DNA from: a virus
IMG/VR virus record: IMGVR_UViG_3300042691_016984
Span: 1 to 31,204 of that record
Reading direction: 5' to 3' (one strand)
Length of the DNA stretch: 31,204 nt
In this document: one piece after another, positions 14,513 through 30,428 of the stretch
Position numbering within the stretch: the first letter of the stretch is position 1
How the letters are laid out: each line of letters starts with the position of its first letter
Notes under the pieces: generated by a model
What the model saw: only the letters and a program-made list of their open reading frames with translations
Told to the model about the DNA's origin: nothing
Databases searched by the model: none
Made by a program: the position numbers and the translations under genes

Positions 14513-14515
14513 GCG

Positions 14516-14806: not shown

Positions 14807-14809
14807 AGG

Positions 14810-15265: not shown

Positions 15266-15295
15266 GCTTCAATCGTTGTGAGCGTTGCGTATCCG

Positions 15296-16603
15296 TCAAG
15301 CGAAAGGGTCGTACTCGGTGAGCGCATGCCCACCGGCGTGCAGGTTTAAACCCGGTCCGCGGGACGGGGCGACGGGGAACGCGAACGTGAGCGCCAGGGC
15401 ATCGGCGATGTCTGGCGAGGGCAGGCCGCGTTTCTTAAGGTCGTCTTTCGACTCGAGCTCGAACTTGTTCGCGGCGTTTGCGTAACTGTAGGTGGGTGCG
15501 CACAACTCGATCTTGAGTTGCGGGATGTCGGGGATGCTCGCGCCGGCTTTCAGCCACTGACTCATGTCGAACCACATCTCCCCACGCTTGTTCACGAACT
15601 GGGGCTTAGTCGGTGAGCCACCGAAGTTCACGCCCACAACAGCATGCCCGAGTTGATGCAAGCGGTCTATCACCCCCTCACCGCGTCCAGCGTCGATGAA
15701 CACCGCGTCGGGCTTCCACTCGACAATCGCCTGCGCCACCTTGGCTGCAAGCTCCATGTTGTTGAGCCCCTGATGCACCTGAGGCTCGAATGCCACCAGT
15801 CCCTGACGACCGAAGATCACTGACTTGTCGTCCCCGTACCGAGCGACATCCACGCCGAGGATGCGCGGTGAGAACTCGTAGTCGGTCGCCGGCAGGTGTT
15901 TACCCACTGCCTCCTGCACCGTCTCGAAGGCGATTAACTGGTCTGGGTTCGATGCGCTGAAATCGTTCAGCATCTCCTGTCGGAACTGGTTCTCACTCAT
16001 GTCTTTGCGCATGGATTCAATCTCGTCGGCTGAGAGGGCATCAGTCTGGTAGCAGGTGTAGTTCGCCGCGAACCACTCGTCGGGGTTGTTGAGAGCCTCG
16101 AAGTATTTCTCACTGAGCAGGTTCACACCCTTCACCGTGCCGATGAAGATGGCCCATCCTCGCCGGTCTGCAATCGCCGGTCGAAGAATCTCACCCCACG
16201 TCTCCGGTTTCATATCGGCGACCTCGTCGAGCACGACCCCGTCGAAGTAGAGTCCGCGCAGGGAGTCCGGGTTGTCAGCGCCGAAGAGCGTGATGGTCGC
16301 CCCGTTGGGAAACGTGACGGACAGCTCAGACTCGTTGATCTTGATGCCGGGGACAGGGAAGCTAAATCGCTTGAGGTAGCGCCAGGCAATCTTCTTGGTC
16401 TGCTTGAGCAGGGGTCCCACGTACCCGAACTGCCCCTCGGCCTTGGTGCATTTGAGCGCAGCATGGACGAGCTCCATGACGGCCATGACCGTCTTGCCAC
16501 CACGTCGGTGGATCACAACGACCGAGAATCGCTTGAGTCCGCGGTGAACCTTGCGTTGCCAGTCCCGGGGCGCGTAGCCGAGGTCGATGCGTTGGGATGC
16601 CAT
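15296..16603 (-). CDS. terL: Terminase large subunit
   Basis: About 435 residues. The ATPase has a Walker A-like VVIHRRGGKT (about 26-35), a Walker B FDGVVLDEVADM (about 118-129), and a coupling motif near FIGTVKGVN. The RNase H-like nuclease begins ILGVDVARYGDDKSVIFG (about 240-257), and DAVFIDAGRGEG supplies a further acid. It cuts and pumps DNA through the portal. I take ATG 16603. A GTG at 16639 would add 12 residues, but neither has a well-spaced Shine-Dalgarno. The small subunit lies upstream across an unusual 276-base non-coding gap. Confidence 0.95.
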   Translation of the reverse strand: MASQRIDLGYAPRDWQRKVHRGLKRFSVVVIHRRGGKTVMAVMELVHAALKCTKAEGQFGYVGPLLKQTKKIAWRYLKRFSFPVPGIKINESELSVTFPNGATITLFGADNPDSLRGLYFDGVVLDEVADMKPETWGEILRPAIADRRGWAIFIGTVKGVNLLSEKYFEALNNPDEWFAANYTCYQTDALSADEIESMRKDMSENQFRQEMLNDFSASNPDQLIAFETVQEAVGKHLPATDYEFSPRILGVDVARYGDDKSVIFGRQGLVAFEPQVHQGLNNMELAAKVAQAIVEWKPDAVFIDAGRGEGVIDRLHQLGHAVVGVNFGGSPTKPQFVNKRGEMWFDMSQWLKAGASIPDIPQLKIELCAPTYSYANAANKFELESKDDLKKRGLPSPDIADALALTFAFPVAPSRGPGLNLHAGGHALTEYDPFA

Positions 16604-16616
16604 CAGGGAAGTGTGC

Positions 16617-16850
16617 AGTCTCTCCTGCTGTCGCACCACTGCATCGACCGGGAGCTACCCGATCCGCGCCGCCGGCATGGAGCCAGCATGGCAGGTGTCG
16701 CGTCTCGGCCTCTCTCCGGTGGTCACGCCGAGTTAAACGGTGGCGTTCCCGTTGGCCTCGCGGCCATCTAGTCTCTCCGAGCTGTCACACCACTCTCTTC
16801 TGCGTCCGTCGGCGGCATTACCTCGTGACCACGGATCGGCAGGTGTCGCG
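16617..16850. repeat. Imperfect duplicated element in the TerS-TerL gap
   Basis: The gap 16604-16879 has no credible gene. Two imperfect copies of an 80-86 base element lie in it (16617-16702 and 16770-16850), each opening with AGTCTCTCC/AGTCTCTCCT...CTGTC.CACCAC and closing with an identical GGCAGGTGTCGCG. The 67 bases between them contain another CTCTCTCC and GTGGTCACG, which can pair with CGTGACCAC inside the second copy. A terminase recognition (pac/cos-like) site or a structured mRNA leader are both possible. The duplication is seen; the role is inferred. Confidence 0.6.
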
Positions 16851-16879
16851 GTTCTACGCTACCACCAGAGGTGCGCAGG

Positions 16880-17149
16880 TCAATCCTCGTCCTCGATGGG
16901 GTCGTCAGGGCAACGGTCGATGCCCGTGATCACCTCGATCTTCACCGGCCCGTCCCCAGCGCCGGTCACCTGCATCGGCAGCACCTTGCCCAACAACGTC
17001 AGGAAGGTGCGCGGGTCGAGCCTCGCTACCGTTTCGAGGTATTCCACCCCACCAGCACGCTCATAAGCCTGCAGGATGGCCTCTTTCAGCGACGTCGTGA
17101 TTTTGTTCGGGACCCCCTTCTTCCGCCCTCCGGTGTATCGTCCTTTCAT
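16880..17149 (-). CDS. terS: Terminase small subunit
   Basis: 89 residues: basic start MKGRYTGGRKKGVPNKITTS with the 'KKG.PNK' DNA-binding signature, a helical part KEAILQAYERAGGVEYLETV, and LDPRTFLTLLGKVLPMQV, then an acidic tail (DRCPDDPIEDED). This is the small-terminase pattern of many podophages. I chose ATG 17149, preceded by AAGAGAG about 4 bases away, over an in-frame start 120 bases upstream whose extra residues look non-coding. First gene of the late operon. Confidence 0.83.
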   Translation of the reverse strand: MKGRYTGGRKKGVPNKITTSLKEAILQAYERAGGVEYLETVARLDPRTFLTLLGKVLPMQVTGAGDGPVKIEVITGIDRCPDDPIEDED

Positions 17150-17196
17150 ACGCTCTCTTGTTTTTTCAAGCCTACAGCAGGTCCCAGAAAGGGCAA

Positions 17197-17492
17197 TGTC
17201 TACGCGTGTTCTACGGAAGTGACTACACAAGTTTGCGCAAGCGTAGACACGCAACTGTTTTGTAGCCAACAGCTTGCGCTTGTCTACACTTGTCTACGCT
17301 TGTTTTGCGAACATTTTGAAAATCTCGTGGAACACCTCACGCCCCTATTCCCCCTATTCCATCTACTACTCTTTTTAATAAAAGAAGTGTAGACAGTGTA
17401 GACAAGTAGGTAAGTGCGTATACCACAAGGATTTTTGACGTCTACACTTCCGTCTACAGAAGTGGGTTGTCTACGCTCAACTTGTGTAGCCA
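17197..17492. repeat. Iteron-like array of TGTCTACRCTTG repeats
   Basis: Nine exact GTCTAC cores occur in 277 bp. Six are on the plus strand (17198, 17282, 17292, 17440, 17452, 17469) and three inverted (17243, 17389, 17398), with several degenerate copies between them. The best consensus is TGTCTACRCTTG. The pair at 17281-17302 repeats at exactly 10 bp and the inverted pair at 9 bp. The middle (17345-17385) is AT-rich, with two CCCCTATTC direct repeats. No credible gene lies in 17150-17621. The location, before the late operon and after a terminator, suits a late-promoter activator array or a replication origin. Confidence 0.85.
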
Positions 17493-17519
17493 AGGCCATG
17501 CTGGGGGCATCAGGGCACG

Positions 17520-17549
17520 AAAAAACCCGCCTCCCACTCGGGAGACGGG
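17520..17549 (-). terminator. Rho-independent terminator of accessory operon
   Basis: On the minus strand CCCGTCTCCC-GAGT-GGGAGGCGGG forms a ten-pair stem (one G-U) followed directly by six T. It lies 73 bases after the stop of the last accessory gene (17622) and ends transcription from the 21503 operon before the late region. Confidence 0.93.
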
Positions 17550-17621
17550 CCTCTCGTTCGTCCGGTTGTGCCACCCCTGGCACTCGCGGCATTGGTTAAT
17601 CTATCGGCGCTGCTGCTGGTG

Positions 17622-17855
17622 TCAACGCGGATTCGTTGCGTTATCCGCAACGGGCATCTCGGTGCTCGTCGTGATCCTGAACCGCTCGTGCGACAGGTTG
17701 AACGTCCTGGCCGCCGCTTTGGCCTCGTCCGCGCATCGGAAGGTCGTTGACCACCGGATGTCGCGGAAGGACACCCACGAGTCCCTGTCACGGTCCACAG
17801 ATAGCCAGCACCCGGTGTCGCGATGCTGGATGCGGTAGGGCTTAGGAAAGCTCAT
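17622..17855 (-). CDS. Small hypothetical protein, last gene of accessory operon
   Basis: 77 residues: YRIQHRDTGCWLSVDRDRDS, then WVSFRDIRWSTTFRCADEAK and AARTFNLSHERFRITTSTEM. Short domains with aromatic beta strands and an 'A..F...' helix of this kind are frequent in phage accessory genes; no function is known. It overlaps the preceding gene by 14 bases, with GAGG about 8 bases before the ATG. Its last codons contain the exact palindrome GTTGCGGATAACGCAAC (coding VADNAT), which also occurs in the Cro-like gene. Confidence 0.7.
   Translation of the reverse strand: MSFPKPYRIQHRDTGCWLSVDRDRDSWVSFRDIRWSTTFRCADEAKAAARTFNLSHERFRITTSTEMPVADNATNPR
17635..17651. promoter_or_regulatory. Putative operator copy 1 (GTTGCG-N5-CGCAAC)
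   Basis: Perfect 6-5-6 inverted repeat, read on the minus strand as GTTGCGGATAACGCAAC. It is identical to the copy at 25483-25499. It lies within the end of the small gene at 17622-17855, about 90 bases before the terminator. Confidence 0.6.
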
Positions 17856-18036
17856 CGTCGGCCTCGTTCTCGGGGTCGCCCATCACTAAGGCAACCCCGA
17901 TGGTTTGTCCGTCGTAGTGTCCGCCGGTGACCCGTGCGAGGTAGGTCACCTCGGGCTTTTCGAGTGAGAGCATCAGGTTCGCCAGTCGGGCTACCAGGTG
18001 CTCCATCTCTTCACGGATCTCGGCTTCGGTGCTCAT
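17842..18036 (-). CDS. Small acidic helical protein
   Basis: 64 residues: helical start EAEIREEMEHLVARLANLML, a short beta part (TYLARVTGGHYDGQTIGVAL), and an acidic tail. I recognise no family. Its ATG overlaps, as ATGA, the stop of the second frame in the methyltransferase locus (18033), not that of the methyltransferase itself (18085). That supports translation of that second frame. Its own end overlaps the next start. Confidence 0.68.
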   Translation of the reverse strand: MSTEAEIREEMEHLVARLANLMLSLEKPEVTYLARVTGGHYDGQTIGVALVMGDPENEADDELS

Positions 18037-19844
18037 ACGATGCGCTCAATCATGTCAGCGAGTTTGCGCAGTGTCTCGGCAATCTCACGCAACGACGGGA
18101 CGCTCGGGGCGACCGGGACATCCTGCTGCGAGGTCGGCAGCAAGCACGGCAAAGGCTCGGGCAGCGGTTGCGGGGACAACTCCGTTTCCGAGCATTCGGA
18201 GCTCATCTGTCCGATTGTCACTGGCGTAGCACAACTCTGCATAGTCCATCCAATCGGCAATCCCATCAGCGCCTCCACCCACCTCGGATTCAGCTTTGCG
18301 TTTTGTTTCGTAACCGTGGCAATCTGGTCGTTGAGGTTCCGACTGCGCTCCGGGTTTTCCCATCTGTCCGCACCCCCACTGCGGTTGTCCCTCGTCTGAG
18401 GTGTCGCCCACGTCTTCTCCGTCGCCCCTACTTGGTTCTGTAGGTAAATCTGCGTTGAGCACTGCTGGTTCTTCGCCTCGGCTACCGATGGCGTTCTCCA
18501 TGTCTTCGGTGTCGCCCACTGCGGGTTCTGCACTGCTGCGCAGAGGTTCGGACTCCTTCCACTCCCCTGCTTCGTCTTCCCCTCGAGCACTGCCTGCTTC
18601 ACACGCTCCCGCCTCTCCATCATCCCCTGCTTGAACTTCTCCCACGGCACTCCGTCGTTCGCCTGCGTTGCGTCCGGTGTTGGCCAGAGTTGCTGTCTCT
18701 CCATCTGCCATGCCAGATTCGGCTGACCTCCATCGATCCTCTTCGGGTGGTGCTTGGTTGCATGGTTGTCTCCGACTTTTGGCGTCAGCCACAACTCGCG
18801 GGGGTTCCCACCAGTGTTGGGGTTCGCCGGGGCGGCTTGGCCATACTGACCATGCTCTGCCGCACCCACCTGCTCCTCCAGATTTCCCTTGCCCCGGTCG
18901 TAGTAGCACGCAGGACTTTGTTCCATCCCCGTCCTCGGTGTCCCCCACATCGCCGGGGCGGCTTGGCCAGACCTGCTCTTCTGCAACTTCTCCCGCACAC
19001 ACTCGCCCCTCAATGCTGGATGGTTGCTCAGTCCCAGTTGCCCGTGATTGGCTTGATTCCCAATCTTCCCCGCTTCCGCGGTAGTCGGTGTCGGCCACAC
19101 CCCCTTCTCTGCTTGATCGACTGCAACCGGCAACTGATCGCACCGACTCTTGCCATCCTGTCTGGTGTGCGAGTTCGGAGAGGTACCCTTCCAATCTCTC
19201 GCCATTGCGGTGGGCCAACTGTGGACTTGGTTTCGCAACCGCGCCTGAGTCGTGCGCCCCTCCTGCTCGTACTCCTGCCACGCTTCCGCTGATCCAACTC
19301 GGCAAGCATCCTCTGTTGAGATTGTGAGCCATGATGAACACCCGCTTTCTCTGGTGAGGCGCCCCGACTTCGCTCGCGCTGAATACTCCCCACGTCGGTT
19401 CGTAACCCAGTTCTTCCAGATCACTGAGCACGCTGGAGAGTCCCAGCGTGATGTGCCCTTCGACGTTTTCGAAGAACACGGTTTGGGGTCGCAGAACTCG
19501 AATGCCGTCTGCGATGGCAGGCCAGAGGTGACGGGGATCGTCGGCGCCGAGTCGCTTCCCTGCGCTACTGAATGGTTGGCAGGGATAACCGCCAGAGAGG
19601 AGGTCCACTCGGTCAGAAAATGCGCTCCAAGGGAAGGTTCGCAGATTGCTCCAGATCGGAGCCGGGTCAAGCGACCCGCCTTCCATTCGCGCAAGTAAGA
19701 GCTCGATGGCACTTGATTCGATCTCCGCATAAGCGACTGTGCGCAGATCTGGGAACACTCGTTTGAGTCCGAGGTCAATACCTCCGTATCCGGTGCAAAG
19801 ACTGATGTGAGTTGGTTGATGATAGGTCGTGGGAGTATCCACAT
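18033..19844 (-). CDS. Second open frame over the methyltransferase: WPTP-repeat / LNPxWVExLMGxPxGWT protein
   Basis: A frame offset from the methyltransferase stays open for 1.8 kb. The part upstream of about 19220 looks like a shadow. From about 19217 down it carries seven W-x-T-P/A steps (WPTAMARDWKG, WPTPTTAEAG, WLTPKVGDN, WPTPDATQAN, WATPQTRDN...) and then LNPRWVEALMGLPIGWT (18243-18293). These motifs are known in C-terminal parts of, or proteins beside, phage C5 methyltransferases. It extends past the methyltransferase stop with a helical end (SLREIAETLRKLADMIERIV), and its stop overlaps the next ATG. A true internal start is not obvious; a frameshift product is also possible. Confidence 0.45.
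   Translation of the reverse strand: MWILPRPIINQLTSVFAPDTEVLTSDSNECSQICAQSLMRRSNQVPSSSYLREWKAGRLTRLRSGAICEPSLGAHFLTEWTSSLAVIPANHSVAQGSDSAPTIPVTSGLPSQTAFEFCDPKPCSSKTSKGTSRWDSPACSVIWKNWVTNRRGEYSARAKSGRLTRESGCSSWLTISTEDACRVGSAEAWQEYEQEGRTTQARLRNQVHSWPTAMARDWKGTSPNSHTRQDGKSRCDQLPVAVDQAEKGVWPTPTTAEAGKIGNQANHGQLGLSNHPALRGECVREKLQKSRSGQAAPAMWGTPRTGMEQSPACYYDRGKGNLEEQVGAAEHGQYGQAAPANPNTGGNPRELWLTPKVGDNHATKHHPKRIDGGQPNLAWQMERQQLWPTPDATQANDGVPWEKFKQGMMERRERVKQAVLEGKTKQGSGRSPNLCAAVQNPQWATPKTWRTPSVAEAKNQQCSTQIYLQNQVGATEKTWATPQTRDNRSGGADRWENPERSRNLNDQIATVTKQNAKLNPRWVEALMGLPIGWTMQSCATPVTIGQMSSECSETELSPQPLPEPLPCLLPTSQQDVPVAPSVPSLREIAETLRKLADMIERIV
18085..19842 (-). CDS. C5 cytosine-specific DNA methyltransferase
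   Basis: 585 residues from a GTG start eight bases after the preceding stop. Motif I SLCTGYGGIDLGL (14-26), catalytic loop GGYPCQPFSSAGKRLG (84-99, Cys 88), motif VI FENVEG (124-129), QRKRVFIMAH (164-173), and the closing motif LGNGVVPATAARAF (about 551-564) are all present, so the enzyme looks complete. Between 185 and 530 is a long, charged insert with recurring VADT/VGDT/LANT/VADA-G steps, in the position of the target-recognition region. Likely roles are protecting phage DNA from host restriction or regulation. The insert is fully overlapped by another open frame. Confidence 0.93.
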   Translation of the reverse strand: MDTPTTYHQPTHISLCTGYGGIDLGLKRVFPDLRTVAYAEIESSAIELLLARMEGGSLDPAPIWSNLRTFPWSAFSDRVDLLSGGYPCQPFSSAGKRLGADDPRHLWPAIADGIRVLRPQTVFFENVEGHITLGLSSVLSDLEELGYEPTWGVFSASEVGAPHQRKRVFIMAHNLNRGCLPSWISGSVAGVRAGGAHDSGAVAKPSPQLAHRNGERLEGYLSELAHQTGWQESVRSVAGCSRSSREGGVADTDYRGSGEDWESSQSRATGTEQPSSIEGRVCAGEVAEEQVWPSRPGDVGDTEDGDGTKSCVLLRPGQGKSGGAGGCGRAWSVWPSRPGEPQHWWEPPRVVADAKSRRQPCNQAPPEEDRWRSAESGMADGETATLANTGRNAGERRSAVGEVQAGDDGEAGACEAGSARGEDEAGEWKESEPLRSSAEPAVGDTEDMENAIGSRGEEPAVLNADLPTEPSRGDGEDVGDTSDEGQPQWGCGQMGKPGAQSEPQRPDCHGYETKRKAESEVGGGADGIADWMDYAELCYASDNRTDELRMLGNGVVPATAARAFAVLAADLAAGCPGRPERPVVA

Positions 19845-19849
19845 TATTG

Positions 19850-19996
19850 TTATTTGGTTAGGATGTATTTCGGGTTCAGTATCTCCTCTGCCCATGCACG
19901 GGCAAAGCGTTTATGTTTACCCCTCGCCCAAGCGTACCCGGCAAGGCACGCGAGGGAGACGAGGATGATGGCGATGGTGAGTCGGTACAGGTTCAT
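19850..19996 (-). CDS. Small single-span membrane protein
   Basis: 48 residues: LYRLTIAIILVSLACLAGYA (3-22) is a clear membrane segment or uncleaved signal anchor. It is followed by a basic stretch (WARGKHKRFARAW) and a polar end. The ATG overlaps the preceding stop (ATGA), which supports the call despite its length. Function unknown; by the positive-inside rule the tail should be cytoplasmic. Confidence 0.72.
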   Translation of the reverse strand: MNLYRLTIAIILVSLACLAGYAWARGKHKRFARAWAEEILNPKYILTK

Positions 19997-20166
19997 TCAC
20001 TCGGGCAGTCTTCGTTGATGCACTCCCAGAAACCGCACGGGCCCGACTCGTTTGCGTCGTCAGTCCACTCCATCGGCTCTTGGCAACGCCGGCACTCAGG
20101 CGGGTCGGGTTGCTCGTCTGGGTTGCTCGTGAGCCATGAGTCGAACCAGTTTGGAAGCCTGCTCAT
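19993..20166 (-). CDS. Small zinc-ribbon-type protein
   Basis: 57 residues: LPNWFDSWLTSNPD, then CRRCQEPMEW, GPCGFWEC and NEDC. Paired cysteines (CxxC, then a C...C...C group) suggest a zinc-binding ribbon, as in many tiny phage proteins that bind nucleic acid or host proteins. The start at 20166 is chosen because it overlaps the preceding stop (ATGA) and has a strong GGGAGG/GAGGT ribosome site about 6 bases away. Confidence 0.7.
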   Translation of the reverse strand: MSRLPNWFDSWLTSNPDEQPDPPECRRCQEPMEWTDDANESGPCGFWECINEDCPSE

Positions 20167-20417
20167 CGCTGACCTCCCTCCCACTTGCCCAGCGTGCGCA
20201 GGAACGCCTCTGCCCGTTGCCGAGCGGTTGCGCAATAAAACTCTCTGTCACCGCAAGACTCTGCGCGAGTGACCAAAACTAACTGTTGGGCGTAAACTGG
20301 AGCAAAGGCATTGAAGATTGCACTCTCCGCTTCGTGCATCGCGTTGAGGCACGCGCAGTAGTCTGCATCCCACCCATACACCGCGGAGATGGCGGCGTTG
20401 ATCTGTTCGTCGGTCAT
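20163..20417 (-). CDS. Small phage protein resembling ABA-sandwich-type
   Basis: 84 residues: TDEQINAAISAVYGWDADYC, then LNAMHEAESAIFNAFAPVYA, and an end with ATARQRAEAFLRTLGKWEGG. The layout 'IN.A.A...GW..DYC.dLNAMHEAE...R.EA.L..lGKW' is typical of small phage ABA-sandwich or DUF2591-like proteins, whose role is unknown. GGAGGT six bases before the ATG is a strong ribosome site, and the start overlaps the previous stop (ATGA). Confidence 0.72.
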   Translation of the reverse strand: MTDEQINAAISAVYGWDADYCACLNAMHEAESAIFNAFAPVYAQQLVLVTRAESCGDREFYCATARQRAEAFLRTLGKWEGGQR

Positions 20418-20776
20418 TCCGCTACCTCCAACAGTTCAACGCGGATTGGGCGCCCCAAGTACGCCGACAGAATCTCTTCTAGCAACTGGATGTTTGCCGA
20501 CGTTGCCAACTGCTCGATTGCCAGTCCGTGCTGCGATGGAAACGCAATCACGACGGACGAGTTGCTGACCTCCAACAGGAAGCCAAGCTCCAACCACATC
20601 CGAATCAAAGGACGCTTCTTCCGAACCTCAGCAACCAGATGCTTCCACGTCTGCTCCCGGTCATCCGCTTCAATCCGGTCAATCTGTGCCTGAGCCTCTG
20701 CTATGGTCGCCTGCGCATCCGCGACGACCTTCCGCAGGTACGCCAGTGTCGAGCACTCCATTGTGTGCGTGCTCAT
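20414..20776 (-). CDS. Coiled-coil protein with DnaX (tau) C-terminal-like domain
   Basis: 120 residues. About 10-42 is a coiled coil (LRKVVADAQATIAEAQAQID). From 44 on the pattern W..LVAEVRKKRPLIRMWLE, VVIAFPSQHGLAIEQL and LLEEILSAYLGRPIRVELLE closely follows the C-terminal domain found on some bacterial DNA polymerase III gamma/tau subunits (W..l...rp.l...l, v.l.fp..., lee.l....Grpv.ve). In bacteria that end of tau contacts the replicase. A phage protein carrying it alone could bind or mimic a replisome part. The similarity is from pattern memory. GGAGGT lies six bases before the ATG. Confidence 0.6.
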   Translation of the reverse strand: MSTHTMECSTLAYLRKVVADAQATIAEAQAQIDRIEADDREQTWKHLVAEVRKKRPLIRMWLELGFLLEVSNSSVVIAFPSQHGLAIEQLATSANIQLLEEILSAYLGRPIRVELLEVAE

Positions 20777-20973
20777 GCCAGCACCTCCCGCACGTTGATC
20801 TGCGTGCCGTCAGCGCCGACAAGCCAGGCACCGAGGCCGGCTTGGTATTCAACGAACTGAGCAACGCCGCCGAACTCGCCGCGGCACCAACGGATGACCG
20901 CTTCGAGCGTCTTACGCTTACCCTGCAGGGAGCCGCGAAGCTCCCCGTTTACGTGGACAGAGTAGGTGCTCAT
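20773..20973 (-). CDS. Small beta-rich hypothetical protein
   Basis: 66 residues: STYSVHVNGELRGSLQGKRK, TLEAVIRWCRGEFGGVAQFV, EYQAGLGAWLVGADGTQINV. It resembles short phage proteins with a strand-helix-strand fold, but I know no function. The start at 20973 has a perfect AGGAGG seven bases upstream and overlaps the previous stop (ATGA), so I prefer it to a longer in-frame version. Confidence 0.7.
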   Translation of the reverse strand: MSTYSVHVNGELRGSLQGKRKTLEAVIRWCRGEFGGVAQFVEYQAGLGAWLVGADGTQINVREVLA

Positions 20974-21131
20974 TCGGACACCTCCTGCGTTAGTGAGACG
21001 TGAGCCAGCACGTAGGTGCCAAGCAGCAGGATGGCGAATCCGACCTGCCACAAGCCGGTTGTGTTGGCGATGAATACCGCATCCATGCTCGATAGCAGGA
21101 GCGATCCGATGGTTATGTGTGTATGTTTCAT
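20970..21131 (-). CDS. Small membrane protein (two hydrophobic segments)
   Basis: 53 residues: IGSLLLSSMDAVFIA (about 8-22) and VGFAILLLGTYVLAHVSL (30-47) could span the membrane twice. Its stop overlaps the next start (ATGA), and the AGGAGG for that start lies within its last codons. That tight fit supports a real gene. It is far from the lysis cassette, so a superinfection or membrane accessory role is as likely as a holin role. Confidence 0.65.
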   Translation of the reverse strand: MKHTHITIGSLLLSSMDAVFIANTTGLWQVGFAILLLGTYVLAHVSLTQEVSE

Positions 21132-21142
21132 AGTCTCGTCAG

Positions 21143-21176
21143 TACCCGCATCACGGGTAGACCGGGTAGCCCCGGT
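21143..21176 (-). other. Two small hairpins in the leader of the membrane protein gene
   Basis: TACCCG-CATCA-CGGGTA (21143-21159) and ACCGGG-TAGC-CCCGGT (21161-21176) are adjacent perfect inverted repeats in the 51-base gap between genes. No U-run follows. Possible processing or attenuation site. Confidence 0.4.
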
Positions 21177-21182
21177 TTCGAC

Positions 21183-21503
21183 TTAGCGGAACCGCTCAAG
21201 CACCGTGATGGCATCAGCAACAACCTTGCGGACGTGCTGCTCCTCACGCTTTGCGGTCGCAACAATCGCCGCCGCCTGCTTCTCCGCATTCGCGATGATG
21301 TTGGCAGCATGCCGTTGAGCATCCGCATGGACTTCCTCGCATTGGCGGAACGCATCACGCAACGAGATCGACGGGATGATGTCGGAGCGAAGGTTGGACT
21401 CGACCTCGTAGTCAACCTGACGCAACCACTCACCGATGTACGAGTCAGAAGGAAACTGGTGGACGAGGTTGCGGAAAAGTTCAAGTTCTTGGTTCTTGTT
21501 CAT
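21183..21503 (-). CDS. Helical / coiled-coil protein, first gene of accessory operon
   Basis: 106 residues. The first part (NQELELFRNLVHQFPSDSYI, GEWLRQVDYEVESNLRSD) resembles short phage proteins of unknown role. The second (about 52-106: RQCEEVHADAQRHAANIIAN, AEKQAAAIVATAKREEQHVR) is a long Ala/Glu-rich coiled coil. No Shine-Dalgarno precedes the ATG. The leader carries an inverted-repeat operator (21528-21544) and a promoter-like element. Confidence 0.72.
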   Translation of the reverse strand: MNKNQELELFRNLVHQFPSDSYIGEWLRQVDYEVESNLRSDIIPSISLRDAFRQCEEVHADAQRHAANIIANAEKQAAAIVATAKREEQHVRKVVADAITVLERFR

Positions 21504-21527
21504 GACGTGTGTTGGTTCGTTGTTCGT

Positions 21528-21544
21528 GTTGCGCTACTCGCAAC
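21528..21544. promoter_or_regulatory. Putative operator copy 2 (GTTGCGCTACTCGCAAC)
   Basis: Perfect 6-5-6 inverted repeat between the candidate promoter and the ATG at 21503. It is placed to block early transcription, like the copy before the 25081 gene. Confidence 0.65.
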
Positions 21545-21552
21545 GGTGACCA

Positions 21553-21596
21553 GCATGCCATGCGCATTGCGTGAGTCAACGTGATTTTCTGTGGGA
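21553..21596 (-). promoter_or_regulatory. Candidate early promoter of accessory operon with shared box
   Basis: On the minus strand a TTGACT (21574-21579) lies next to the 17-base box CGTGATTTTCTGTGGGA (plus-strand 21580-21596). That box matches the one before the exonuclease operon at 16 of 17 positions. The -10 is poor (CATGCT-like). The parallel layout of box, TTGAC, operator and gene at both operons is the main support. Confidence 0.45.
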
Positions 21597-21599
21597 AAT

Positions 21600-21634
21600 A
21601 AAAACCCCACCAAGCACTTGGCATAGTGGGGTTT
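21600..21634 (-). terminator. Rho-independent terminator after thyX
   Basis: On the minus strand AAACCCCA pairs with TGGGGTTT, enclosing an inner CCAAG-TG-CTTGG stem with a five-base bulge, followed by five T. It lies 29 bases after the ThyX stop and ends the exonuclease-ThyX operon. Confidence 0.88.
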
Positions 21635-21662
21635 ACGCTGGGTTGGGTGAGGCTCGAGTGGA

Positions 21663-22313
21663 CTATTCGTGCGCGATTTTCAGCGCTTGATGGACTGTCG
21701 GGAACACTTCAGCGAAGCACCGGTCAATCGCCTGCGCAATCTCACGGTGTTCTTTCTGAGTGTGTTCGTCGAGGCGAACCTGCAGGTAGTGAATCCACGA
21801 CCGACAAGTGCCTGACATGTACAAGGTTGTGCTCGTCGCGAGCGGCAGCACCATGCGTGCGCATTCACGCGCAACGCCGGCGTTGAGCAGTTCGTCGTAA
21901 ACAAATGCGACCCTCGTCATCGCCTTGCAGACCAAGCTGCGAACCTCTTCATCTTCAATGACTTCAGTGCTGCTCTGCCGATTCTTATCAGCCTGACGGC
22001 GCAACTCCACCGGCTCAATACCAACCGCTTCCGAATAGCGTTGGCTGAACTCTTGGAACGAGAACGACTTGTGACGCAGCAACTGCGCGGCAATCGCACG
22101 CGAAGTCTTGATTTCAACGGTCATCGACGCCTGCTCAAACACGGACCAATGCCCGTGCCTGATGCAGTACTGCAGGAGTCGCGGAGCGGTTTCCATGTTG
22201 CTCTGATTGCTCGGGTTAGACACCCGGGCACAGTAAACAATCAACTCCTCCGCGGTGCTGGGCCCACCGTCGAACTGACAGGGGACCGTGGATGCGATGA
22301 GTCGGACGTTCAT
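21663..22313 (-). CDS. thyX: Flavin-dependent thymidylate synthase
   Basis: 216 residues. It makes dTMP from dUMP with FAD, NADPH and methylene-tetrahydrofolate. The ThyX signature R-H-x-x-S-x(5)-S-x-R is visible as RHKSFSFQEFSQRY (80-93, with K for the usual R). WSVFEQASMTVEIKTSRAIA precedes it, and the C-terminal part ARMVLPLATSTTLYMSGTCR, WIHYLQVRLDEHTQKEHREI is typical. The ATG at 22313 overlaps the previous stop (ATGA); an upstream in-frame extension of 59 residues looks non-coding. Last gene before a terminator. Confidence 0.95.
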   Translation of the reverse strand: MNVRLIASTVPCQFDGGPSTAEELIVYCARVSNPSNQSNMETAPRLLQYCIRHGHWSVFEQASMTVEIKTSRAIAAQLLRHKSFSFQEFSQRYSEAVGIEPVELRRQADKNRQSSTEVIEDEEVRSLVCKAMTRVAFVYDELLNAGVARECARMVLPLATSTTLYMSGTCRSWIHYLQVRLDEHTQKEHREIAQAIDRCFAEVFPTVHQALKIAHE

Positions 22314-22561
22314 CGGGTTAAGCGTTGAGCCTCCGACAGATGCGTCATCCGCTGAATCTCGCGTTTGACGTACCACTGCGCCTTGTACAAGTCCTCGAGG
22401 TGAGTCGCCGAACTTTTCAAACCCGCTCGCCAGAGGTACTTGATGGCGTTGCCGACGTTCAGATTCATGTGCTCGATCACGTCGATGCACTCGATGCCAG
22501 CAGGGTGCTGGTTGTAATGCGCCGGGTGATCCACCGGATCGTTGTTCGGGTCGAAGCTCAT
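22310..22561 (-). CDS. DUF3310 (SaV-like) protein
   Basis: 83 residues with the full signature of the small phage family often labelled 'nucleotide kinase': DPVDHPAHYNQHPAGIECID, VIEHMNLNVGNAIKYLWRAG, LKSSATHLEDLYKAQWYVKR. The biochemical role is unproven. It sits next to thyX, consistent with nucleotide metabolism. The start is chosen at the ATGA overlap with the gene before; it ends in an ATGA overlap with thyX. Confidence 0.9.
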   Translation of the reverse strand: MSFDPNNDPVDHPAHYNQHPAGIECIDVIEHMNLNVGNAIKYLWRAGLKSSATHLEDLYKAQWYVKREIQRMTHLSEAQRLTR

Positions 22562-22899
22562 AGCGAGAACGTGCGTTTGAACCACCCGATGACCCCGGAG
22601 GGCTCGGTGAGCTTCTGCTCGAGTTCCACGATGTAGTCCCTCTGCAACTGCACCGTCTTGTCAGCGTCTGCCAGTTGGGCGAGTAGCTTCTGGTTGTTCT
22701 CTAGCAACAGTCCCTTCTCTCGCTGCCAGTCGTTGAACAAAACCTGGGACTTGCGGTGCGCGGCTTCCGCCACGTTCGCGTCAAAGGCCGTTAGTTGCTT
22801 GCGCAACTGGAACACAACTTGGTTGCGTTCAGTGCGGATTTGTTTGATGTACTGCCGTGCCTCATCGAGGCTTTTAATGGCTTGGAGTTGTCTACCCAT
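22558..22899 (-). CDS. Coiled-coil protein of unknown function
   Basis: 113 residues from ATG 22899, which overlaps the end of the previous gene by eight bases (ATGGGTAG). Mostly long helix: GRQLQAIKSLDEARQYIKQI, RTERNQVVFQLRKQLTAFDA, GLLLENNQKLLAQLADADKT, VQLQRDYIVELEQKLTEPSG, ending in an amphipathic VIGWFKRTFSL. An in-frame ATG at 22971 would add a Gln/Lys/Ser-rich stretch, but that part overlaps the preceding gene and reads as its shadow. It could be a structural adaptor of a replication or recombination complex; no family recognised. Confidence 0.65.
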   Translation of the reverse strand: MGRQLQAIKSLDEARQYIKQIRTERNQVVFQLRKQLTAFDANVAEAAHRKSQVLFNDWQREKGLLLENNQKLLAQLADADKTVQLQRDYIVELEQKLTEPSGVIGWFKRTFSL

Positions 22900-23110
22900 T
22901 TTCTTGTTCTGTTGTGGTTGTGGTTTCTGCTGTTTCTTGTCCCCCTGCAGGGACGAAGACTTCGACGACATCGTGGAATGCTCCCTCGTGGAATGTCTGA
23001 CCACCCGACCGGATGCACGCCCTGGGGGGCGCCATCTCGGTGAGTGCTGAGAGTGCTGCGATGGGGACGGGGCAGATTAGTTGCGCCCAGATGGTTTCCT
23101 CGCTGCTCAT
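22892..23110 (-). CDS. Small hypothetical protein with a good ribosome site
   Basis: 72 residues: SSEETIWAQLICPVPIAALS, ALTEMAPPRACIRSGGQTFH, EGAFHDVVEVFVPAGGQE, and a Thr/Glu tail. GGAGG lies seven bases before the ATG at 23110, which overlaps the stop of the HTH gene (ATGA). I recognise no family. The low-complexity tail overlaps the possible longer form of the next gene. Confidence 0.62.
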   Translation of the reverse strand: MSSEETIWAQLICPVPIAALSALTEMAPPRACIRSGGQTFHEGAFHDVVEVFVPAGGQETAETTTTTEQENG

Positions 23111-23307
23111 GGGTGTACCTCCTCTCTCTGCGCAAACTCCCAACTCTCCACGTCCTCAAGCCGGTAGCGAACCGGCCCCCTCTTCCCAGCCAGGCGGATG
23201 TACGTAGGACCAATCCTGCGTGTTCGCCAGTTCGCCAACGTGCCCAAAGCAATCTGCAACCTGTCCGACAACTGCTCAGGCGTGAGCCAAATGAGACTAG
23301 TTTTCAT
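23107..23307 (-). CDS. Small helix-turn-helix (excisionase/AlpA-like) DNA-binding protein
   Basis: 66 residues in the winged-helix HTH_17/MerR-like layout: LTPEQLSDRLQIALGTLANW (8-27) forms the HTH, RRIGPTYIRLAGKRGPVRYR the wing, and LEDVESWEFAQREEVHP the last helix. Proteins of this type act as excisionases or small activators. No integrase gene is visible in the window, so a regulatory or DNA-architectural role is equally possible. It lies between ERF and the coiled-coil gene. Confidence 0.8.
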   Translation of the reverse strand: MKTSLIWLTPEQLSDRLQIALGTLANWRTRRIGPTYIRLAGKRGPVRYRLEDVESWEFAQREEVHP

Positions 23308-23331
23308 GGTCGTATAGATGTGGGTGGGGCC

Positions 23332-24147
23332 CTAGAAAGGCCCCGATTCGTCTGCCTGCTGATCCCCAAACGGCACGTCGTCCTGCTGCTCCGGTGCGGG
23401 TGCCGGTGCTGCCTCTGCTGCTGGTGCTGGTGCTGCCTCTGGCGTGCTGCGTAGCTTCGCCATTGCCGACTTCACTTTCGACGGCACGGTCCCCTTGCTG
23501 GCAAGCGCCGCCTTGCGTTCGTCTTTCGCTTTGATGAGCTCGGCGATGCCTGCGTCGTCGCCCAGTGCGTCTGCCGCGTTGTACGCGTCGGTGTACACAG
23601 CTTTGAGCACGTCCACGTTCTCAGCCTTGCGGATTGCCGTCAGCGCCTCGTCGAGGTTGAACGGGCGTCCCTGAGGTGCCGGCTCGGGTTCTGTCGCGTC
23701 AGGCCGGCGGATGGTCACCTGTTTGCGAGGTTGGGTTGCGGCGTTGCCGTCGTCGTCGTCCTGGACGATGCCAACCATCGCGGCGAGAGCGTAGCGGCGA
23801 GCGTAGGTCACCGCGGACCCGACTCCCTGCGCATCGGGCTTCGACACCGGGATGGTGAAGGTGCTCTGAATCCACTCGCCAGACTCGTGAGCGAGGATGG
23901 TGGTGAGCTCGATGGTTTTGTCGCCAATCTCCCCGGGCGTCTGGATCACTGCCAGTCCGTTGCTGGCAAGGGGTTCGCGGCACGCGTCCCACACACCGGC
24001 GAGGTCCGCGTACCGGGACCGGAAGTGGGGATTCACGCTGTCTTTGAGTGCGGCACGCATTGCCCCCTGCGCTTTTGCGAGGGAACCTGCGAGTTTTGCG
24101 ATGCTGTCTGATGCCTTTAACATGCTTTTTTCTGTTGTTTTTGTCAT
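23332..24147 (-). CDS. erf: ERF-family single-strand annealing protein
   Basis: 271 residues. The N-terminal ERF domain (about 15-130) shows IAKLAGSLAKAQGAMRAALK, NPHFRSRYADLAGVWDACRE, LASNGLAVIQTPGEIGDKTI, and VGSAVTYARRYALAAMVGIV. It pairs complementary single strands after exonuclease resection, and the partner exonuclease gene lies directly upstream. The tail is Ala/Pro-rich, then acidic, containing DDVPFGDQQ, which resembles the acidic tip bacterial SSBs use to recruit partners. The start at 24147 has no Shine-Dalgarno; an ATG at 24123 is an alternative. Confidence 0.92.
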   Translation of the reverse strand: MTKTTEKSMLKASDSIAKLAGSLAKAQGAMRAALKDSVNPHFRSRYADLAGVWDACREPLASNGLAVIQTPGEIGDKTIELTTILAHESGEWIQSTFTIPVSKPDAQGVGSAVTYARRYALAAMVGIVQDDDDGNAATQPRKQVTIRRPDATEPEPAPQGRPFNLDEALTAIRKAENVDVLKAVYTDAYNAADALGDDAGIAELIKAKDERKAALASKGTVPSKVKSAMAKLRSTPEAAPAPAAEAAPAPAPEQQDDVPFGDQQADESGPF

Positions 24148-24157
24148 TGCTGCTTAA

Positions 24158-25081
24158 CTACTTGCTGCTTTTCTTCGCGTTCACGCGGAAGTTCCGATAC
24201 GCCTGGCGAACGAACGCCGGCACCTCCTTGGCCTCGATCATCCCCGCAGAGATGGACCACCCCGGTCCAATCACCTTCTCGGCAGTGCCGATGCGGGTGA
24301 GGAGTTGAGCCTTCAGAGAATCCTTAATGTCCTCGAGCGACTTGATGTTGCTCGACACCTCACGGTAGCGGGACACCAGGTCGTCGGTTTCAATGTCACC
24401 GGTCGCATCGACGACCTCGCCGGGGTTGGCACGTGCGTGGAGTTTCGCCACCACGTTGGCGTCCTCGGGGTAGTGAGGTTCGGGCGCCACACTTGATTCG
24501 ATGCTCGCCCAGAACCGAGCGACCTCGTCGAGGATTTGCGCATGCACCTCGGGGTCGGCCTTGCGGATGCAGTACTTGATGGTGTTGCCGGCGACGAGCG
24601 CCGCAATCACGCCCCACGACCGGCCCGTCACCAGCAACTGGTGTTGGAGTTGAAGCTCGATGTGAGCGGGGGCTTCGACCACGCCGTCCTCGTCGCTCCA
24701 TTTGTCGCGAAACACGAGGAAGTCCACGTTTTTAATCTCGAGCAGGCCGGGACCGTCTTCGTGCCCGAGAATCTCGAAATCAAACGAGGAACCGATGCGG
24801 CGTTCGTCGATGCGGGAGTAGACGTTGCGAGCACGCACGTCCCAACCCATGTCCTCGGCGATGCCGCGTGCAATCGCATCCTGCAGGCGATTGCCCCAGC
24901 GCATGCGCTCGTTCTCTTCCACCGTGTCACTGAGTCCGCCGGTCTTCTGGTGCCAGAGTTGGAGGCGCGTCTTGTACGGACTGAGTTCGAACAAAGCGGC
25001 CACGTCCGTTGATGTGATGTCCTTGCCGCGGAGGGCAAGCCAGGCTTCCCGGTCTGTCGGGAGTATGTTGGTCGTTTTCAT
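24158..25081 (-). CDS. YqaJ/lambda-exonuclease-type recombination nuclease
   Basis: 307 residues. The PD-(D/E)xK core is visible: WLALRGKDITSTDVAALFEL near the start, MRWGNRLQDAIARGIAEDMG (the acidic helix), SSFDFEILGHEDGPGLLEIK (catalytic Asp and E-x-K, about 97-116), and AHIELQLQHQLLVTGRSWGV (the Q-rich helix). It degrades one strand of duplex ends so that ERF can anneal. First gene of the leftward operon. Its leader holds an inverted-repeat operator 9 bases before the ATG and a candidate promoter. Confidence 0.92.
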   Translation of the reverse strand: MKTTNILPTDREAWLALRGKDITSTDVAALFELSPYKTRLQLWHQKTGGLSDTVEENERMRWGNRLQDAIARGIAEDMGWDVRARNVYSRIDERRIGSSFDFEILGHEDGPGLLEIKNVDFLVFRDKWSDEDGVVEAPAHIELQLQHQLLVTGRSWGVIAALVAGNTIKYCIRKADPEVHAQILDEVARFWASIESSVAPEPHYPEDANVVAKLHARANPGEVVDATGDIETDDLVSRYREVSSNIKSLEDIKDSLKAQLLTRIGTAEKVIGPGWSISAGMIEAKEVPAFVRQAYRNFRVNAKKSSK

Positions 25082-25089
25082 GTGTGTTG

Positions 25090-25106
25090 ATGTTGTCGTT
25101 TTGACA
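25090..25106. promoter_or_regulatory. Putative operator copy 3 (GTTGTCGTTTTGACAAC)
   Basis: Perfect 6-5-6 inverted repeat with variant arms (GTTGTC/GACAAC). It lies between the candidate promoter and the exonuclease start. Confidence 0.6.
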
Positions 25107-25116
25107 ACGGGATGGA

Positions 25117-25169
25117 CGCTAATACCAAGGGCATTCGGTGGTCAAGTAGGTTTGCGTGATTTTTTGTGG
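25117..25169 (-). promoter_or_regulatory. Candidate early promoter of exonuclease operon with shared box
   Basis: On the minus strand TTGACC (25138-25143) and TATTAG (25117-25122) are 15 bases apart, a little short for a sigma70-type promoter. Upstream lies the box CGTGATTTTTTGTGGGA (25153-25169), shared with the 21503 operon. The operator at 25090-25106 would sit just after the transcription start. Confidence 0.5.
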
Positions 25170-25249
25170 GACTTAGAGAGACTTACAGGAATCTCCTGAT
25201 GCATCGTGCTACAGATTAAGCACTTGTATAACCATTCAGCATCTGCCTG

Positions 25250-25278
25250 TTGCACTCCGTTGCGACACCAGCAACAAT
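25250..25278 (+). promoter_or_regulatory. Candidate promoter of the Cro-like gene, leaderless
   Basis: TTGCAC (25250-25255), a 17-base spacer, and AACAAT (25273-25278). The ATG begins six bases after the -10, so the mRNA would start at or next to the start codon. The spacer contains operator copy 4, which fits autorepression. Confidence 0.5.
25259..25275. promoter_or_regulatory. Putative operator copy 4 (GTTGCGACACCAGCAAC)
   Basis: 6-5-6 inverted repeat with one mismatched arm position, lying between the -35 and -10 elements of the rightward promoter. Confidence 0.6.
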
Positions 25279-25284
25279 GTTTGC

Positions 25285-25593
25285 ATGACCTCTGCTGACA
25301 TCGTCATCGCCCGTTTCGGTGGGATTCGTGCAACCGCACGAGCACTGCGCATTCACGCTTCATCGGTGCTGCGCTGGAAACGCTCGGGCACCGTGCCTAT
25401 TAGACGTTGGAACGCACTGCTTTCCGCAGCGCAGCGCAACGCAGTTCCGCTCGAGGTCACCGACCTTCTCCCCAACATTTCTGTTGCGGATAACGCAACA
25501 CGTGATACGAGTGCGGCATGCAACTCCGCGACTACCAGTTCGACCTCCTCGACCGGACCCGTCGTTCTCTCGCCAGTCATCGGCGAACCCTGA
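25285..25593 (+). CDS. Cro-like HTH transcriptional regulator
   Basis: 102 residues. ADIVIARFGGIRATARALRI (4-23), HASSVLRWKRSGTVPIRRWN and a helix ending EVTDLLP form a small Cro/YdaS-type helix-turn-helix: 'FGG..A.AR.L......V..WK.SG.IP..RW..L'. The first 63 residues are the regulator; the Ser/Thr-rich tail overlaps the helicase gene by 76 bases and may be unimportant. It stands at the divergent point between leftward and rightward operons, and all five inverted-repeat operators flank genes it could control. No ribosome site; likely leaderless. Confidence 0.8.
   Translation: MTSADIVIARFGGIRATARALRIHASSVLRWKRSGTVPIRRWNALLSAAQRNAVPLEVTDLLPNISVADNATRDTSAACNSATTSSTSSTGPVVLSPVIGEP
25483..25499. 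promoter_or_regulatory. Putative operator copy 5 (GTTGCGGATAACGCAAC)
   Basis: Perfect inverted repeat, identical to copy 1 in reverse orientation. It lies 18 bases before the helicase ATG and inside the regulator gene, where it codes VADNAT, the same peptide as in the 17622-17855 gene. Confidence 0.65.
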
Positions 25594-26924
25594 TGGTATG
25601 CCCCACGGGTGGGGGTAAGACCGTGATGTTCTGCTACATGGCACAACGTGCCGTGGCCCGTGGTGGACGCGTGGTGATTCTCGTGCATCGGGACGAGCTC
25701 ATCGACCAAGTCGCCGGCACCTTACATCGGTTCAACGTCCCCTGCACCTTCGTGGCGCCTGGTCGTAAGTACAGGCACAACATCCCCGTCGTCGTCGCCT
25801 CGGTGTTCGCGCTCAAGAACAGGCTGGATGTCGTTCACTCCCCGACACTTGTCATTGTGGACGAAGCGCACCACGCCACCGCGAAATCCTCGTGGGGCCG
25901 CGTGCTCAACACGTGGGCAGCATCAAAGGTTGTCGGTGTGACAGCAACGCCGCAACGCTTGTCGGGCGAGGGGCTTAACGAGTTGTTCGACGATATGGTC
26001 GTGGGACCCACCACTGCGGATCTCATCGAGGCGGGGCACCTCTCCTCATACGAGTATTTCTGCCCGTCAGAGGTAGATTTGAGCGGTGTTGGGTTTGCGA
26101 TGGGCGACTTCAACAAGCACGACCTCGACACCATGATGAACAAACCCGGCATAACGGGTTCAGCGGTCGAGCACTACCGCAAACTCGCTGACGGCAAACG
26201 TGCGGTGATTTTCTGCGTGAGCCTCAAACACTGCGCCGCGGTGCGCGATCAGTACCTCGCAGCAGGCTACCGTGCTGAGATCATCGACGGCACGATGGAC
26301 AAACTCGCACGACGCTCTCTCGTCCAACGCTTTGCCTCTGGCGGACTCGACCAGTTGGTGTCGTGCGACGTGGTGTCGGAGGGGTTCGACCTGCCTGCCA
26401 TCGAGGTGGTGCAGATGCTGCGCCCGACCGCATCGACCTCGCTCTGCCTCCAGCAGTGGGGCCGAGGACTTCGCACGTTCGCCGGTAAGACCCACGCCAT
26501 CATCCTAGATCACGTCGGTAACTGCCGGCGCCACATGTTCCCCGACTCCGACAGGGAGTGGACGCTCGAGGGGAAGAAGCGCAAGAAGAAGGACGCGGAA
26601 GCCAAGATCGCAATCCGCCTCTGCCCCGTGTGTTTCCGCGCACTCCCCGGGGGCACTCCGGTTTGCGGGTGCGGTCACCGGTTCGCACCTCAACCGCGGG
26701 AGGTTGAGCAGAAGCAGGGTGAGCTCGTGAAGGTATCGGCTCAGATGAAGCTTGCCCTGCAGGCACAACGGAAGCAGGAGCAAAGCAGTGCGAAGACATA
26801 CGAGGATCTCGTCGCACTTGGTCAATCTCGTGGGTATCGTTTCCCACGCGAGTGGGCTCAGAAGATTCTGGCCTCACGTAAAACGAGAACAAGAAGCAGA
26901 ACAACAACATCATGGCATCACTAA
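25518..26924 (+). CDS. SF2 DEAH-type helicase with zinc-finger end
   Basis: 468 residues: Q-motif-like LRDYQ at the start, Walker A CPTGGGKT (28-35), DEAH in VIVDEAHH (113-119 region), TAT (142-144), and QQWGRGLRTF (312-321) as motif VI. After the helicase core comes a four-cysteine cluster (CPVC at 369-372, CGC at 383-385) and a charged tail. Phage proteins of this type unwind DNA or remodel forks in replication or recombination. The last 13 bases overlap the SSB start. Confidence 0.92.
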   Translation: MQLRDYQFDLLDRTRRSLASHRRTLMVCPTGGGKTVMFCYMAQRAVARGGRVVILVHRDELIDQVAGTLHRFNVPCTFVAPGRKYRHNIPVVVASVFALKNRLDVVHSPTLVIVDEAHHATAKSSWGRVLNTWAASKVVGVTATPQRLSGEGLNELFDDMVVGPTTADLIEAGHLSSYEYFCPSEVDLSGVGFAMGDFNKHDLDTMMNKPGITGSAVEHYRKLADGKRAVIFCVSLKHCAAVRDQYLAAGYRAEIIDGTMDKLARRSLVQRFASGGLDQLVSCDVVSEGFDLPAIEVVQMLRPTASTSLCLQQWGRGLRTFAGKTHAIILDHVGNCRRHMFPDSDREWTLEGKKRKKKDAEAKIAIRLCPVCFRALPGGTPVCGCGHRFAPQPREVEQKQGELVKVSAQMKLALQAQRKQEQSSAKTYEDLVALGQSRGYRFPREWAQKILASRKTRTRSRTTTSWHH

Positions 26925-27289
26925 ACAAAGTCCTCCTCATGGGTAACTTAACCCGCGACCCAGAGACAAAACACACACCGAAAGGAACCGCAGTCACTCA
27001 GATGTCGATTGCAATCAACCGCAACTACACGACGGAAGGCGGAGACAAGAAAGAGGAGGTCACGTATGTGGACATTGAAGCGTGGGGCAGGTTGGCAGAG
27101 AACTGCGCAGAACACCTGTCGAAGGGGAAACAGATTTTCGTCGAAGGCCGGCTCAAGCTGGACACTTGGGAAGACAAGCAGACCGGGGAGAAGAAATCCC
27201 GTCTTCGCGTTGCCGCTGACGCGGTGCAGTTCCTCTCGCCGAGAGAGTCGTCGCAGCAATCCTCCTCACGCCCACGTCGTGATTTCTGA
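26912..27289 (+). CDS. ssb: Single-stranded DNA-binding protein
   Basis: 125 residues with a full OB-fold of the bacterial SSB type: LNKVLLMGNLTRDPETKHTP, QMSIAINRNYTTEGGDKKEE, VTYVDIEAWGRLAENCAEHL, GKQIFVEGRLKLDTWEDKQT. The tail is short, Ser/Gln/Arg-rich and ends RPRRDF rather than the usual acidic DDDIPF tip, so partner recruitment through the tip may be lost. It overlaps the helicase gene before it and the nuclease gene after it. Confidence 0.95.
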   Translation: MASLNKVLLMGNLTRDPETKHTPKGTAVTQMSIAINRNYTTEGGDKKEEVTYVDIEAWGRLAENCAEHLSKGKQIFVEGRLKLDTWEDKQTGEKKSRLRVAADAVQFLSPRESSQQSSSRPRRDF

Positions 27290-27587: not shown

Positions 27588-27615
27588 TTGGCCAAACAAA
27601 ACACACACACGGAGG

Positions 27616-29972: not shown

Positions 29973-29979
29973 AAGGATT

Positions 29980-30142: not shown

Positions 30143-30148
30143 TCTGAC

Positions 30149-30244: not shown

Positions 30245-30251
30245 AGTCACC

Positions 30252-30422: not shown

Positions 30423-30428
30423 CGCCGC

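Follow-up and report, generated by a model that had tools for sequence, protein, structure and literature searches.

Dispersed 17-bp inverted repeats and a Cro-like protein suggest a regulon under Cro alone in a probably virulent phage lineage

In phages of the lambda/P22 layout, operators are clustered at OR and OL. The telomere phages N15, PY54 and phiKO2 carry operators at cB-cro and at cB-repA with predicted Cro half-sites (PMC4997575). Mycobacteriophage L5 has about 24 asymmetric stoperators that are bound by its immunity repressor, and the clear-plaque phage D29 has lost part of the repressor gene, keeping the sites and a working integration apparatus (PMC5712189 and PMC9283540). Here we describe five 17-bp inverted repeats and a Cro-like helix-turn-helix (HTH) gene in a single virus record of 31,204 bases, IMG/VR record IMGVR_UViG_3300042691_016984, hereafter the window.

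Taken together, sequence comparison and structural modelling make it very likely that the Cro protein encoded at 25285 binds these dispersed operators and forms a Cro-only regulon in a probably virulent lineage. The arrangement looks like an ordinary Cro-operator system; what is unusual about it are the single, dispersed operators, the Cro-only state, and the layout and history of the locus.

Five repeats and a Cro-like gene

Three of the repeats are perfect copies of GTTGCG-N5-CGCAAC. S3 (25483..25499, plus strand) lies within the 3' end of cro as a putative operator, 18 bp ahead of the ATG of the helicase gene; S4 (21528..21544, minus strand, GTTGCGAGTAGCGCAAC in that reading) precedes the second leftward operon as another putative operator; and S5 (17635..17651, minus strand) lies, again as a putative operator, in the last codons of the open reading frame (ORF) 17855-17622. 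The other two are S1 (25092..25108, minus strand), which is GTTGTCGTTTTGACAAC or, in the minus-strand reading, GTTGTCAAAACGACAAC and forms the putative operator before the exonuclease/Erf operon, and S2 (25259..25275, plus strand), which reads GTTGCGACACCAGCAAC with one mismatch and is the putative operator in the predicted cro promoter, 9 bp before the ATG. The initial annotation had listed these five repeats correctly, except that its 25090 should read 25092. It had assigned four of them to operon starts, which holds for three (25092, 25259 and 21528), the copy at 25483 being located inside the 3' end of the HTH gene.

Such repeats do not occur at equal density in shuffled sequence. GTTG-N9-CAAC is found six times in the window against a mean of 0.82 and a maximum of 4 in 500 shuffles, and five times within 17601-25600 against a mean of 0.17 and a maximum of 3 in 1000 shuffles. 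The sixth copy, at 13645 inside ORF 12851-14512, is probably the one that chance predicts and is excluded from the operator count. Three perfect 6-5-6 repeats with the same arm were reached in none of 300 dinucleotide shuffles, the largest same-arm family there being two (4 of 300); perfect 6-5-6 repeats of any arm number 19, compared to a shuffle mean of 10 and a maximum of 20. A looser pattern allowing three mismatches is uninformative as evidence: its 34 matches barely exceed chance (25.8 in shuffles, with 6 of 100 shuffles reaching 34), so the signal depends on the strict copies.

On the minus strand S5 is the same as S3 in all 17 bases. In sense orientation the letters of these two intragenic operators coincide and both encode VADNAT, with flanks that differ; in L095 and in L096, two related loci introduced below, the letters of S3 and S5 differ from each other. 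A megablast search with window positions 12000-31204 did not find a phage record.

The cro-like gene itself (25285..25593, plus strand) encodes a protein whose helices, in the model, fall in residues 3-61; its tail (64-102), of low confidence, overlaps the helicase gene. Its match to the Pfam family P22_Cro has an E-value of 8.3e-5 and 22.7 bits, with a cut-off of 30.2. A profile built from four relatives retrieved from the PDB 3bd1 (6.6e-6), 5w8y (1.9e-5), 1rzs (0.0037) and 2hin (0.018), that is Xfaso 1 Cro, the hybrid XPH1, P22 Cro and N15 Cro. The AlphaFold2 model has a mean predicted local distance difference test score of 69.9, with helices at 3-11, 14-21, 25-34, 39-52 and 58-61, and the four structures closest to it (3bd1, 2hin, 6on0 and 1rzs) are all Cro proteins; the Z-scores of 7.0-8.1 over 60-64 residues are modest, as a value near 8 is for a small helical domain. 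By profile and by model, the initial assignment of a Cro-like gene at 25285 is thus borne out, and a Cro-type repressor of the P22/N15/Xfaso 1 kind is a well-supported identification on these predictions. The end of the cro frame overlaps the helicase start by 76 bases (25518-25593), and the low-confidence tail is constrained by the helicase gene as well as by operator S3.

Recurrence in relatives and the recognition helix

Relatives were found by searching with the HTH, helicase, exonuclease and terminase proteins, and ten clade loci were mapped (L094, L095, L096, L097, L100, L103, L106, L107, L012 and L014). L103 and L012 belong to one record (G004), L094 is a twin of the window, and the terminase-only contigs L104 and L105 were left out of the mapping. 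S1, S2, S3 and S4 are present in every mapped relative covering the place, even where cro is only 46-48% identical: S1 in L095, L096, L103 and L014, S2 and S3 in L096, L012 and L014, and S4 in L095, L096, L103 and L106. S5 recurs in L094, L095, L096, L100 and L107. The scan of relatives proposed in the initial annotation thus finds the sites at matching places with altered middles, and it is this conservation of place with a changing middle that is, at the level of sequence, the informative feature of the 19 sites compared, one of which is an extra L014 site. L014 has two additional copies, at 4263-4279 and 6739-6755, one upstream of a CI-like frame and the other between genes after ssb.

In 101 kb of clade sequence, spacing 9 gives 21 GTTG/CAAC copies (a total that excludes L091, L092 and L108), compared to between 0 and 6 apiece for the 12 other spacings (3-8 and 10-15). 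Among arms of the 4-9-4 form GTTG ranks first (21, the next 13). The density of GTTG-N9-CAAC is 0.21 per kb in the clade. In the 73 loci picked by helicase (L015-L087) it is 0.016 per kb, with 17 copies at spacing 9, within the range of other spacings (7-23). A general feature of helicase genes was considered and rejected, 37 of the loci L015-L055 having been read by eye without a common repeat before the helicase gene; in these distant relatives, for which no Cro family search was made, L017 and L027 have other HTH-like frames at that place. Across records the motif search matched in 14 of 16; controls were non-zero in G009 (2), G012 (1) and W02 (2), with motif matches of 1, 0 and 0, respectively.

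Does the motif follow the protein? In a first survey of 130 bp upstream of 22 Cro-like genes, GTTG-N9-CAAC was found in eight (the window, L007, L012, L014, L091, L092, MW202640 and MW202722, in the last only at -111) and not found in the remaining 14 regions. Among these 14, a left half at about -25 is followed by an altered right half in DC33 and zth2-2; Carin1 has GTTG-N9-CACC about -83 from its annotated start, as read by eye. From 16 fetched regions, L179 was left out of the operator analysis and U5 was uninformative, its annotated start being read as a non-Cro frame.

A second survey picked loci by the recognition-helix pattern only, without looking at the DNA (the best 80 of 97). Removal of six clade loci left 74 loci in 26 clusters at 90% identity, and the motif lies within 160 bp upstream in 17 of the 26, with seven for the next arm and at most four for other spacings; control stretches of equal size at eight other distances gave 0-1 of 22-25. 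If a right half CATC is accepted, the motif is present in 23 of the 25 clusters of D type (helix DPAA or a close variant), and in 24 of 26 together with L193, which has the exact motif. At position 5 of the half-site, A occurs in 22 of 32 D-type half-sites versus none of 38 in the window's clade, a difference for which the Fisher test treats half-sites as independent, which they are not. The joint change of operator and helix, for which a check was proposed initially, is visible in position 5, and operator letters that shift with helix type are what direct recognition would predict, with the reservations that the rule is loose and the clusters are related among themselves. Resemblance to known Cro proteins, the tracking of motif with helix and the difference at position 5 all lend in silico support to the earlier proposal of repeat binding and autorepression by the 25285 protein.

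A different DNA-binding protein might occupy the sites, either a host regulator or the phage HTH_17 protein (23107-23307, leftward, after Erf). In its favor, HTH_17 is a conserved protein of the clade, and host-type promoter boxes lie close to the sites. On the other side, the motif tracks Cro genes picked by helix, sits in the cro promoter region and differs at position 5 with the Cro helix type, and no motif excess was found in the helicase-selected loci; we consider such a protein highly improbable.

The repeats could also act in RNA, as 6-bp hairpins with a 5-nt loop, in leaders or ahead of terminators, that serve as translational operators or in boxB-like antitermination. A start codon follows four of the copies at 9-24 nt and a terminator-like hairpin follows one, standard pairing is possible at pair 5 in 18 of the 19 sites (four by G-U) and at pair 6 in 15, and sense-strand spacers are purine-rich in 13 of 19, a proportion that is not significant (p 0.17). 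The D-type phages speak against hairpins, since their right half is often CATC and the stem is broken. Upstream of cro there are, moreover, three sites in L091 and two in L092, in the manner of DNA operators, identical arm letters recur in distant phages, and S2 would fall upstream of the predicted transcription start. A function in RNA is thus very doubtful.

Promoter-like boxes and a proposed course of regulation

The leftward run from 25081 comprises the YqaJ/RecE-type exonuclease (24158..25081, minus strand), which is the first gene of the S1 operon, the Erf single-strand annealing protein (23332..24147, minus strand), the HTH_17 protein and ThyX. A terminator-like hairpin at about 21605-21631 separates it from a second leftward run, which starts at 21503 with the first gene of the S4 operon (21183..21503, minus strand; a weak DivIVA-like match) and includes a cytosine methylase. 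The rightward run from 25285 holds the HTH gene, the DNA helicase following S3 (25518..26924, plus strand, by family match), what we take from its sequence to be an SSB, and a primase/helicase.

Putative promoters were placed by eye: for cro at 25250..25278 (plus strand, TTGCAC-N17-AACAAT, from an alignment), for the exonuclease operon at 25116..25145 (minus strand, TTGACC-N18-TAGCGT) and for the second leftward operon at 21552..21579 (minus strand, TTGACT-N16-CATGCT). S2 falls into the spacer between the predicted -35 and -10 boxes of cro, in agreement with the earlier claim that this copy is in the gene's own promoter. S1 and S4 lie 6-11 nt past the -10 box, over the predicted transcription start. 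The distance from S3 to the helicase start is 18 bp in all four genomes compared (the window, L096, L012 and L014).

These positions suggest the following course. Cro, presumably as a dimer, would bind the 17-bp GTTG-N9-CAAC, in the clade GTTG[C/T]-N7-[A/G]CAAC. As it accumulates after infection, it would shut its own promoter through S2 and, through S1 and S4, which overlie the predicted start of transcription, the early leftward promoters of the exonuclease/Erf operon and of the second leftward operon, respectively; repression at these three sites is proposed because of where they lie. S3 and S5 are found inside genes. At S3, Cro probably obstructs transcription from cro into the helicase operon as a roadblock, with an internal promoter as the alternative mechanism, and at S5 it would be bound upstream of promoter-like boxes that precede the late genes. 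The notion that both leftward operons and the helicase operon are tuned by Cro thus gains from S1 and S4, which lie over or beside promoter-like boxes; control of the helicase through 25483 is likely, with no convincing promoter found at that site. Cro is the only regulator that can be assigned to these operators.

The region of S5 deserves separate mention. As the initial annotation had it, this copy is at the end of the accessory operon. It lies just ahead of a promoter-like sequence and a terminator-like hairpin. The former, a possible late promoter (17598..17625, minus strand, TTGACA-N16-TAGATT), is just downstream of S5; the latter, a hairpin with a T run (17526..17549, minus strand), follows the accessory operon before the terminase genes, was read from the sequence and is absent from the scan listing. 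The boxes of the possible late promoter are the sole sigma-70-like match listed within 16800-31204, with 3.1 in shuffles; both boxes are kept in L096 despite an altered spacer, and L095 keeps the -35 only. As the mark of an early operon 17635 has to be given up: it is not an early start, it adjoins the possible late promoter, and it is missing from two relatives. One could go further and picture Cro as a lytic-only temporal switch after the loss of CI and integrase, which shuts the two leftward promoters and its own, uses S3 as a stoperator-like roadblock and through S5 activates the late promoter before the terminator. The centre of S5 is at about -52 from the predicted start of that promoter, counted by hand. 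We regard this elaboration as unlikely.

Several findings weigh against a Cro regulon on dispersed operators, and they should be set beside the evidence in its favor. The P22_Cro match is under the Pfam cut-off in all six proteins matching that family. S5 is absent in L103 and L106, and L108 has four GTTG-N9-CAAC copies, yet no Cro gene was seen there. The constant GTTG/CAAC of the 19 sites is given by construction of the search. Since the Cro proteins of SaltyDalty and AH07 share the helix letters RW and lack GTTG-N9-CAAC, RW alone is insufficient to specify it. The helix/position-5 rule is loose because L091 and L092, whose helices HPSS and HPST resemble the window's, have mixed letters there (C 5, G 3 and A 2 of 10). 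Most of the 26 clusters come from a single group of related phages, and the Cro genes of two, L193 (same record as L091) and L222 (which encodes the Cro of MW202640), had already appeared in the first survey; without these two the motif is in 15 of 24 clusters. The boxes for S1, S2 and S4 were placed by eye from alignments, the promoter scan gave fewer sigma-70-like matches than shuffles, showing no excess and by itself proving nothing, and a convincing promoter at S3 was not found.

Might the repeats instead be replication or recombination sites, such as iterons or dif/att-like elements? They are inverted repeats near helicase and recombination genes. Across 8 kb their placement goes with start codons and promoter-like boxes, no integrase match was found in G000, G001 and G002, and a separate GTCTAC cluster makes a better origin candidate, so that we think this exceedingly improbable. 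That cluster, in the non-coding gap that precedes the terminase genes, consists of nine GTCTAC/GTAGAC copies at 17198-17474, out of 19 in the window as a whole, and the matching gap holds 7 copies in L103, 12 in L106, 5 in L096 and 9 in L094; it is a possible origin or packaging region.

Some further features were observed on the way. An A-rich element, TCCCACANAAAATCAC on the minus strand, occurs at 21581-21596 and 25156-25171 upstream of both leftward promoter-like boxes, with looser matches at 17097 and 26205 and similar sequence in relatives; the shared element is possibly an UP element. A 620-codon open frame (18033-19895) overlaps the cytosine methylase gene (18085-19842) on the same strand in another frame, and a gene in the tail region has collagen-like GPQG repeats at 6984-7457.

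A lost CI-like repressor and comparison with known systems

In record G004 (L012/L103) cro and the exonuclease are separated by a CI-like HTH_3 gene; the same record has an integrase match, and a similar CI-like reading frame was seen by eye in L014. The window has only about 200 bp between exonuclease and cro. Within them, 44 bp (25170..25213, minus strand) remain as a scar of a lost CI-like repressor gene: 27 of the 44 positions agree with the 3' end of the gene in L103, the best of 17,073 placements; L014 gives 9 of 44 at the anchored place and 23 of 44 at its best placement. Among nine records searched, integrase matches occur in G004 and G012 and HTH_3 in the same two, in G012 below cut-off. 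Neither family was matched in G000, G001 and G002 or in four named phage records, and the S24 and resolvase families had no match in G000, G001, G002 and G004.

Over the stretches compared, which left out window 384-5298, the sibling G001 and the window have 100% identity, apart from one 383-bp piece at 99.5%. End repeats of 114 bp in G001 and 127 bp in G004 indicate that both may be complete; the record tables give no completeness. A divergent CI-type partner gene was not found in G000/G001 by the HTH_3 and S24 families, the window having only the scar, and a CI of another family may be present elsewhere in G001. On the simplest reading of these gene contents, this appears to be a virulent lineage of temperate ancestry that lost CI and the integration genes and kept Cro. 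The divergent CI-type partner is a matter of the neighborhood of cro, not of the Cro protein.

Among the papers listed in searches on Cro in virulent derivatives and on freshwater-host phages we recognised nothing as this system, which is not to claim that the motif is absent from print, and a search on the conserved inverted repeats of phiC31 gave no papers. What, then, can be learned from this locus? It offers a testable operator code for an environmental phage Cro group, in which helix type is linked to half-site letters. It also provides a natural pair with operators at the same places, one relative having CI and integrase and one sibling in which neither was matched, which allows one to ask for the role of Cro once lysogeny is gone.

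With the Cro proteins of P22, N15 and Xfaso 1 (PDB 1RZS, 2HIN/6ON0 and 3BD1) the window shares the helical fold and profile match, a gene at the start of a rightward operon and a putative operator at its own predicted promoter. It differs from these systems in its GTTG-N9-CAAC, in single sites over 8 kb, in a tail overlapping the next gene and in that a CI partner was not found in its lineage. N15, PY54 and phiKO2 have the same five-helix kind of Cro; they are temperate with a CB repressor, whereas the window's sites are also found inside or at the end of genes (PMC4997575). The dispersed repressor sites of L5, some of them in transcribed regions, are alike, in contrast to the symmetry of the window's sites, their number of about five and their putative assignment to Cro. 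D29 keeps its integration apparatus, whereas no integrase was found in the window's lineage. D29 and L5 are comparable to the history proposed here, in which a repressor gene is lost and the sites stay (PMC5712189).

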